A DNA stretch of 45,683 nucleotides. Origin: an uncultured Brachyspira sp. GTDB lineage: Bacteria; Spirochaetota; Brachyspiria; Brachyspirales; Brachyspiraceae. Positions 210-1,456 of this stretch are shown here, piece after piece. Every line of letters starts with the position of its first letter. The first letter of the stretch is position 1. The translations under genes were made by a program, and so were the position numbers. Below the pieces are notes generated by a model, which was not told where the DNA came from, made no database searches, and was given only the letters and a program-made list of their open reading frames with translations. The stretch lies in assembly GCF_944388875.1 (NCBI RefSeq), contig NZ_CALXKQ010000021.1, forward strand, positions 1 through 45,683, written 5' to 3'.

Positions 210-1250
210 CTATAACATTATTTTTCCGTTGTATTTTTGTCTGATTTTAGAAACTGTATCAGATATCATATTAACAGATTCTATAATATCCGCAAATACA
301 TCAGGTTTTATAGACTGTGCCCCATCACATAAAGCATGCTCAGGATCATTATGCACTTCTATAATCATGCCGTCAGCACCTGCAGAAATAGCTGCTAATG
401 TGAGAGGAAGTGCCATCCATGATTTACCGCTGGCATGCGAAGGATCTCCTATAACAGGCAAATGACTTAAACGCTTTATAGCAGGTATTGCACTTACATC
501 AAAAGTATTTCTGGTATAAGTTTCAAATGTTCTTATCCCCCTTTCGCATAGTACAACATTTTCATTGCCTTGATTAAGTATATATTCGGCACTCATAAGC
601 CATTCCTCTATTGTATTGGCTAAACCTCTTTTTAAAAGTATAGGCTTTTTTAATTTTCCTACTTCTTTTAAAAGTTCAAAGTTCTGCATGTTTCTTGCCC
701 CAATCTGAATCATGTCAACGGTATTATCAAAATCTTCTAAATGCCTTATAGATACAATCTCACTTACAATAGGTATTCCAACCTCTTCTTTAGCAAGTTT
801 TAATATTTTAAGTCCATCCAAAGCTAAACCCTGAAATGCATAAGGGGAAGTTCTAGGTTTGAAAGCTCCGCCTCTAAGTATAGAAGCACCTGAAGCCTTT
901 ACACTTTTAGCTATATTAATAACCTGCTCTTCGCTTTCAACAGAACAAGGTCCGGCAATAATAGTAGGTTTACCCTCACCTATTTTTACTCTGCTTACAT
1001 CTACTACAGTGTCTTCTTTTTTGAATGCTCTGTTTGCTCTTTTAAATGGCTCCTGCACTTTCAATACTTTAGACACACCAGGTAAAGATGAAATTAAATC
1101 TCTGTCTATCTTTGAAGTATCTCCTACCATACCTATTACTGTATAATCTACCCCCACACTCTTATTTATTCCAAGACCTGCATTTTCAAGTCTTTCTATA
1201 ATGTTATTAATATGCTCTTCTTTTGCATTTGGTTTCATTACAACTATCAT
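210..1250 (-). CDS. aroF: 3-deoxy-7-phosphoheptulonate (DAHP) synthase, type I-beta with N-terminal regulatory domain
   Basis: Condenses phosphoenolpyruvate and erythrose-4-phosphate to DAHP, the first step of the shikimate pathway to aromatic amino acids (cytoplasm). The 346-residue protein has an N-terminal ferredoxin-like domain (about 1-70), as in Thermotoga-type enzymes where it mediates feedback inhibition. A TIM-barrel catalytic domain follows, with AGPCSVE (99-105, metal-binding Cys102), RGGAFKPRTSPY (126-137), LLKRG, GDPSHASG and EVHNDPE. Length and motifs are normal. The ATG at 1250 is preceded by AAGGAGA at good spacing. The gene stands alone on its transcript. Upstream lie a consensus promoter, an aromatic-rich leader ORF and a hairpin, so control by Phe/Tyr-dependent attenuation is likely in addition to feedback on the enzyme. 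Confidence 0.95.
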   Translation of the reverse strand: MIVVMKPNAKEEHINNIIERLENAGLGINKSVGVDYTVIGMVGDTSKIDRDLISSLPGVSKVLKVQEPFKRANRAFKKEDTVVDVSRVKIGEGKPTIIAGPCSVESEEQVINIAKSVKASGASILRGGAFKPRTSPYAFQGLALDGLKILKLAKEEVGIPIVSEIVSIRHLEDFDNTVDMIQIGARNMQNFELLKEVGKLKKPILLKRGLANTIEEWLMSAEYILNQGNENVVLCERGIRTFETYTRNTFDVSAIPAIKRLSHLPVIGDPSHASGKSWMALPLTLAAISAGADGMIIEVHNDPEHALCDGAQSIKPDVFADIIESVNMISDTVSKIRQKYNGKIML

Positions 1251-1340
1251 AATATAATTCTCCTTGAATATTAATTATTGTAAAATAATAAAAAATATTT
1301 TAATAAAATGTATTTGTTCGTTAATTATAAAATAGATACT

Positions 1341-1361
1341 CTGGCGTCTTAAACGCCATAG
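1341..1361 (-). promoter_or_regulatory. hairpin overlapping the leader-peptide stop (candidate attenuator)
   Basis: On the minus strand TGGCGT (1358-1353) pairs perfectly with ACGCCA (1347-1342) around a 5-nt loop holding the TAA of the leader ORF. Two more pairs can form beyond one mismatch. The following sequence (tatctattttataa) is U-rich but not a clean U-run, so it would be a modest terminator. A ribosome stalled at the Phe-Phe-Tyr-Tyr codons would cover the 5' arm and prevent the hairpin. ACGC at 1380-1377 could also pair with GCGT at 1356-1353 as a weak alternative. Confidence 0.5.
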
Positions 1362-1420
1362 TAGAAGAAATGATAAGCGTAGATGCTTTTGAAATTATTT
1401 GGAATAATAATACCTTTCAT
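1349..1420 (-). CDS. putative aromatic-rich leader peptide for aroF attenuation (23 aa)
   Basis: This short ORF (ATG at 1420, TAA at 1351-1349) lies between a consensus promoter and aroF. Its C-terminal part reads FKSIYAYHFFYYGV: seven of the last 14 residues are Phe or Tyr, including the run Phe-Phe-Tyr-Tyr just before the stop. A hairpin overlaps the stop codon. This is the layout of pheL/trpL-type leader peptides, where scarcity of the charged tRNA stalls the ribosome and lets transcription proceed into the biosynthetic gene. The ATG lies only 8 nt after the -10 box and no Shine-Dalgarno sequence can precede it, so translation would have to be leaderless. The function is inferred from composition and position. 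Confidence 0.6.
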   Translation of the reverse strand: MKGIIIPNNFKSIYAYHFFYYGV

Positions 1421-1428
1421 AGACATTA

Positions 1429-1456
1429 ATTATACATAAAAAAATTAAAAAGTCAA
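1429..1456 (-). promoter_or_regulatory. promoter of leader peptide/aroF
   Basis: On the minus strand TTGACT (1456-1451) is followed after 16 bases by a perfect TATAAT (1434-1429). Transcription would start near 1422-1420, at or next to the leader-peptide ATG. Confidence 0.75.

Follow-up and report, generated by a model that had tools for sequence, protein, structure and literature searches.

A candidate ribosome-mediated attenuator with its stop codon inside the hairpin upstream of aroF in Brachyspira and related genera

Introduction

Is the short, aromatic-rich open reading frame (ORF) in front of the DAHP synthase gene aroF of an uncultured Brachyspira sp. part of an amino-acid attenuator and, if so, how would it read its signal? 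The locus lies on contig NZ_CALXKQ010000021.1 (assembly GCF_944388875.1), of which positions 1 to 45,683 were analysed (hereafter the window, 45,683 nt). A preliminary description of this DNA had proposed Phe/Tyr attenuation and had named no known case in Brachyspira; our literature search likewise found no amino-acid or leader-peptide attenuator described for this genus. From comparative sequence analysis we consider it likely that a ribosome-mediated transcription attenuator without an antiterminator is situated upstream of aroF.

Results

The locus comprises the following features, given in window coordinates.

1451..1456, minus strand: -35 box TTGACT
1429..1434, minus strand: -10 box TATAAT, 8 nt upstream of the leader start codon
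1349..1420, minus strand: leader peptide ORF, MKGIIIPNNFKSIYAYHFFYYGV*, 23 codons
1358..1393, minus strand: aromatic codon run FKSIYAYHFFYY of the leader ORF
1375..1388, minus strand: weak hairpin AAGC-AUCUAC-GCUU inside the ORF, a possible RNA polymerase (RNAP) pause hairpin
1337..1363, minus strand: hairpin UACUAU-GGCGU / loop UUAAG with the stop / ACGCC-AGAGUA, with one A-G mismatch
1324..1336, minus strand: U-rich tract UCUAUUUUAUAAU, a candidate site of termination 3' of the complete stem
1266..1336, minus strand: spacer of diverging sequence, rich in C and with hardly any G in most Brachyspira leaders
1260..1265, minus strand: aroF ribosome-binding site, sequence AAGGAG
210..1250, minus strand: aroF paralogue A, encoding a DAHP synthase of type I-beta whose N-terminal regulatory domain is ferredoxin-like (Asn29/Ser31)

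The consensus promoter named in the preliminary description stands: TTGACT, a 16-nt gap and TATAAT form the top sigma-70 match of the region (11 of 12 positions), and the -35 box reads TTGACT or TTGACA in most homologues. The distance from the -10 box to the start codon is about 8–9 nt in other genera too, and the promoter spacing predicts a 5' untranslated region of 0–2 nt in all groups. The predicted 5' end of the aroF leader RNA is thereby at or beside the AUG, so that the RNA would be leaderless. A ribosome-binding site before the leader ORF is not possible, as the start codon sits 8 nt past the -10 box and leaves no room for one. An alternative in-frame ATG at 1426 lies past the -10 box but ahead of the expected start site. 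It occurs in none of the homologues, and the ORF was therefore taken to start at 1420. The 23-codon ORF was thus confirmed at 1420-1349, together with the earlier count of aromatic residues, as Phe and Tyr make up 7 of the last 14 residues of the leader (MKGIIIPNNFKSIYAYHFFYYGV).

A leader ORF with a stop-bearing hairpin precedes aroF in 25 of the 29 family genomes, which represent three genera counting Brachyspira; 24 were found by a covariance model (R1) and one, G027, by direct reading. The arrangement is absent from G001 and G019, and the locus is fragmentary in G003 and G013. Within the family genomes R1 gave no match away from aroF, and it gave none in the remaining spirochaetes (296 genomes in all), a search whose strict filters can drop weak matches: G026 was lost to them, and G027 was missed by R1 in both searches. 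The simple pattern GGYGTYTARNNNCRCC, which was one base too long, returned no match, and R1 was used in its place. Most Brachyspira genomes carry two aroF paralogues (A and B, about 88% identical), and in most of these genomes leader and hairpin lie upstream of both. In the two further genera a leader precedes a single aroF and ends in ...NSYYFYYGV*, ...FYLYFGV* or ...FYAFYFYGV*. The preliminary description had named an absence of the ORF from related strains as a finding that would count against attenuation, which is not what the family genomes show; in the comparison of aroF upstream regions that it proposed, ORF, aromatic codons and stem are kept while the flanking DNA drifts.

Aromatic-rich short ORFs are in themselves not exceptional in this DNA: at least seven Phe or Tyr among the last 14 residues are found in 20 of 1675 short upstream ORFs (1.2%) in 2.4 Mb of G004. 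Among these, the aroF leader alone has its stop within a GC-rich hairpin, and what doubt was left over a chance origin is dispelled by its conservation in different paralogues and genera. No leader of the same design was found in the 2.4 Mb of G004 besides the two aroF leaders, and when G004 was searched for leaders enriched in other amino acids, no biosynthetic gene came up convincingly, with a filter that was not exhaustive and missed the known aroF leaders.

Several aroF loci depart from the common arrangement. In the reduced genome G019 (2.0 Mb), aroF is strongly diverged (about 57–65% identity), its regulatory domain is degenerate and it has no leader (L030). In four genomes aroF A lies at another site and has neither a leader nor a visible attenuator (L019, L020, L021, L023). 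In G006, G005 and G010 (L005, L008, L009) a truncated 5' copy of aroF (about 21–50 codons) lies between the leader and the full aroF A; after this copy comes another nested hairpin, the second at the locus, which carries a U-run (AAAATTGC..CTGGTATTC..GAATACCAG..GCAATTTTT). At the extreme end of the contig, positions 1-84 of the window hold a tandem heptamer, CGGTTTG.

Both codons preceding Gly-Val are aromatic in all 39 leaders, and the N-terminal halves drift. The A leaders, to which that of the window belongs, are Tyr-rich and end in YAYYFFYYGV (44 F and 70 Y in the last 14 residues of 15 leaders); the B leaders are of a Phe type and end in FFFxFFGV (113 F and 2 Y in 17 leaders). Where only B has a leader (G011, G012, G014, G017), this leader mixes Tyr and Phe codons and ends in YYFKSFYYFGV. 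Single Tyr codons are missing in some A leaders (L001, L006, L017, L022). Among variant codons in the aromatic columns, 9 of 18 are synonymous compared with 23% expected (P 0.013, a value not corrected for the tree). Peptide sequence differs between genera while aromatic content is kept, which fits the reading of codons and not an arrest peptide. Gly-Val-stop is fixed because GGCGTTTAA doubles as the 5' arm and loop of the hairpin. Of the Phe/Tyr attenuator originally proposed, the aromatic codons and the exclusive link to aroF hold, and its specificity can be refined to Tyr(+Phe) for A and Phe for B.

The ferredoxin-like domain of the Thermotoga maritima DAHP synthase binds Tyr or Phe (PMC5526877; PMC6362186). 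The regulatory domain of the enzymes studied here aligns to that protein without gaps, and residue 31 is Ser in all 21 A-type enzymes (20 A plus G001x) and Ile in all B enzymes, in G001y and in three outgroup enzymes; at the level of sequence, the split of leader codons (A Tyr, B Phe) tracks this residue. In the T. maritima enzyme the Tyr hydroxyl is reportedly contacted by His29 and Ser31, and a change of Ser31 is said to shift the preference towards Phe. If these details hold, A would be the Tyr enzyme and B a Phe enzyme, matching the split of the leaders.

The hairpin is larger than the 6 bp first given. Its GC-rich stem GGCGT/ACGCC (1357-1353/1347-1343, minus strand) indeed encloses the stop TAA in the loop as described, but the stem extends through the Tyr codons, with UACUAU (1363-1358) pairing with AGAGUA (1342-1337) at one mismatch. 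The complete stem has 11 stacked positions (MFE -12.8 kcal/mol, z -4.3), and in eight leaders the fold was 2.0 to 5.3 s.d. better than shuffles. Its 5' arm is made of the last four leader codons, so that the putative terminator overlaps the ORF. Covariation within the genus is modest since the GC core is invariant and most pairs are uninformative. Compensatory changes were observed at the pair adjoining the core in L015 (U-A to C-G) and, across genera, in the core itself in L028 (GGUG/CACC), and pairing falls from 87% to 34–52% when the partner columns are slid. A role of the hairpin in sequestering the aroF ribosome-binding site was ruled out, as both the length (51–150 nt in most) and the sequence of the spacer drift freely.

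All A leaders compared (14 of 14) retain the pairing of the weak intra-ORF hairpin, with two C-G to U-A double changes, a result matched by 27 of 500 shuffles; in the B leaders this hairpin is not significant (264 of 500 in the shuffle control). Constrained folding of the leaders found no conserved antiterminator or alternative fold. When the arms of the terminator are kept from pairing, the strongest competing folds of the Brachyspira leaders reach only about -5 to -12 kcal/mol, compared with -14 to -19 kcal/mol in total.

Past their outermost GC pair, gene-end hairpins of G004 (167 cases) have about 80–88% T over six positions. The U-run of the aroF leaders lies about 11 nt further from the GC core than in those hairpins, after an A/G-rich lower stem, and the hairpin of L027 has no U-run. 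The 60 nt directly 3' of the hairpin contain 3–11 C and 0–3 G in Brachyspira leaders, and the C-over-G skew of most leaders ranks in the top few percent among 357 5' regions of G004. Closer to aroF, several A leaders do not show this skew (L010, L011, L022), and in the other genera it is weak.

Discussion

The arrangement of these elements suggests the following mode of action. Transcription would begin at or beside the leader AUG, and the first ribosome would load on the 5' end of the RNA. The Tyr or Phe codons that come last before Gly-Val-stop would at the same time be the 5' arm of the terminator-like hairpin. Given ample charged tRNA-Tyr (tRNA-Phe in the case of B), translation would run to the stop in the loop and the ribosome would leave, so that the hairpin could close and RNAP would terminate at the U-run. 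Under shortage of the charged tRNA, the ribosome would stall 1–4 codons before the GC core and cover the 5' arm, and the polymerase would read through into aroF. By analogy with pyrBI, the ribosome itself would cover the hairpin. Aromatic codons are strictest 1–4 codons before the GC core, i.e., at the covering positions, which suggests that stalling there is the signal. We infer termination, leaderless start, stalling, occlusion and the direction of the response from this organization.

Whether such a device responds in the proposed direction would depend on timing. In a simple stochastic kinetic model with assumed E. coli-like translation rates, starvation induced readthrough only with a slow or pausing RNAP that takes several seconds over the leader (effective speeds of 5–15 nt/s and partly 25 nt/s), and at 40 nt/s the response was inverted. 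An RNAP delay of this kind could come from slow growth, from pausing in U-rich sequence or from the weak hairpin upstream. Classical attenuators likewise depend on the synchrony of ribosome and polymerase (PMC1183508).

The pheL, hisL and trpL leaders of enterobacteria share with the Brachyspira leader a short ORF carrying codons of the regulated amino acid, a pathway gene and an intervening hairpin with U-run; the Brachyspira leader differs in having no conserved antiterminator and no Shine-Dalgarno site and in placing the stop in the hairpin loop. A distance of >20 bp separates leader ORF and terminator in the known amino-acid attenuators, and a ribosome at the stop leaves the terminator undisturbed (PMC4824070). 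Both an antiterminator and a stop-terminator distance of >20 nt were looked for, and since neither was found we do not assign the leader to the pheL/trpL type. Its geometry recalls E. coli pyrBI (pyrL), whose leader ORF contains the terminator, so that the translating ribosome masks it directly (PMC4824070). However, pyrBI senses UTP via RNAP pausing, whereas in the U-rich Brachyspira leader aromatic codons are the probable sensor; the Brachyspira leader thus combines amino-acid codons with the geometry of pyrBI.

The nearest published case is the uORFC-13-1 motif of Acholeplasma aroF (PMC8632094), a uORF with one or more Phe codons by a terminator stem, likewise only predicted. It differs in that it has a ribosome-binding site, a uORF upstream of the terminator and an extra stem, belongs to another phylum and comes with no described paralogue split. 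In the actinobacterial ilvB leader ORFs, branched-chain codons overlap a candidate terminator hairpin; these leaders involve other amino acids, and changing their regulatory codons had no effect in S. coelicolor (PMC1262725). The preliminary description had called a leaderless leader peptide unusual for an attenuator, and unusual it is, but precedents exist: in S. meliloti trpL the RNA also starts at the leader AUG, in another taxon and with another amino acid, and attenuates transcription of the trp operon (PMC7298713). Mycobacterial polycysteine uORFs share the leaderless AUG and differ in their Cys codons, in taxon and in acting on translation (cited in PMC13236596). An Rfam search, run at gathering level and also with E values of up to 1, gave no match to a T-box or other family.

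Among the competing explanations, control by Rho deserves the closest attention. After departure of the ribosome, Rho would load on the C-rich, G-poor stretch 3' of the hairpin and stop transcription before aroF, and the hairpin would serve as a pause or stop-codon shield. The composition of the first 60 nt past the hairpin and its rank in G004 point this way, as do the displaced or, in L027, missing U-run and the Rho-type termination proposed for Mycobacterium cys leaders (PMC1262725). We nevertheless regard this as unlikely: stem and U-run are conserved, the skew is confined as described above, and the stretch 3' of the hairpin would stay uncovered even with a ribosome stalled in the ORF.

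In E. coli, a ribosome at a stop codon near a terminator represses that terminator (PMC4824070), so that rapid translation could itself cause readthrough. Control might then be inverse, with translation to the stop masking the hairpin, starvation leading to termination and aroF following translation capacity. The fast-RNAP regime of the kinetic model and the repression of E. coli terminators by translating ribosomes are consistent with this. It appears quite improbable, as Tyr and Phe synthesis would drop just when these amino acids run short, hardly a sensible response for a biosynthetic gene preceded by codons for its own products, and as the aromatic codons are invariant at exactly the covering positions.

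An overlooked antiterminator would make the leader a classical pheL/trpL-type attenuator. This is in keeping with the aromatic leaders of clostridial aroF loci, whose terminators lie beyond the stop, and with 5-bp alternative pairings in some A leaders, but must be considered very improbable because the alternative folds are weak and unconserved (L006 and L022, for example, no longer have the ACGC/GCGU pairing) and a stop within the hairpin leaves no space for segments 2 and 3. Lastly, it is hardly credible that an AT-rich ORF lies beside the hairpin by chance, the two being unrelated, or that the ORF encodes a functional small protein, in spite of the 1.2% of aromatic-rich short upstream ORFs in G004, given the exclusive conservation before two paralogues and in three genera and the retention of composition but not of sequence.

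Each trait of the attenuator without antiterminator that we favour has precedent; as far as we searched, their combination and the paralogue split have none. More tentatively, we suggest that an ancestral Tyr+Phe sensor may have been split after duplication, that leader codons and the allosteric pocket of the enzyme may have changed together, and that a single, leaderless-loaded ribosome may cover a 5' arm made of regulatory codons with no antiterminator involved. The residue-31 change would then show that feedback at the transcript and protein levels divided together after duplication. The Brachyspira aroF leader is a compact, testable attenuator candidate, and two paralogues with different codon specificity in one cell constitute a natural experiment, in which limiting Tyr should move only A and limiting Phe mostly B. 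That the stop lies within the hairpin also bears on the relative speed of ribosome and polymerase in a slow-growing, AT-rich spirochaete.

Two further observations concern other leaders. Aromatic-rich short ORFs, e.g., MKLNGFYFYGYYFFEPIS and MKRNIFAAEYFYFYFINKS, also precede aroF at 14 loci of Clostridia and one Fusobacteria genome (L207, L208, L209, L212, L228, L238, L244, L261, L263, L266, L267, L270, L280, L283). Many of these loci have a strong terminator 29–56 nt past the stop, with no Rfam match save a tRNA in L283, and the arrangement looks like a widespread classical aroF attenuator. In G004 (C1, around 1060682, minus strand), a Cys-rich short ORF, VLTPGACCCSCCCSCCVSVTVNK, lies 70 nt 5' of a gene for an ABC-type ATPase and resembles a cysteine-codon leader.
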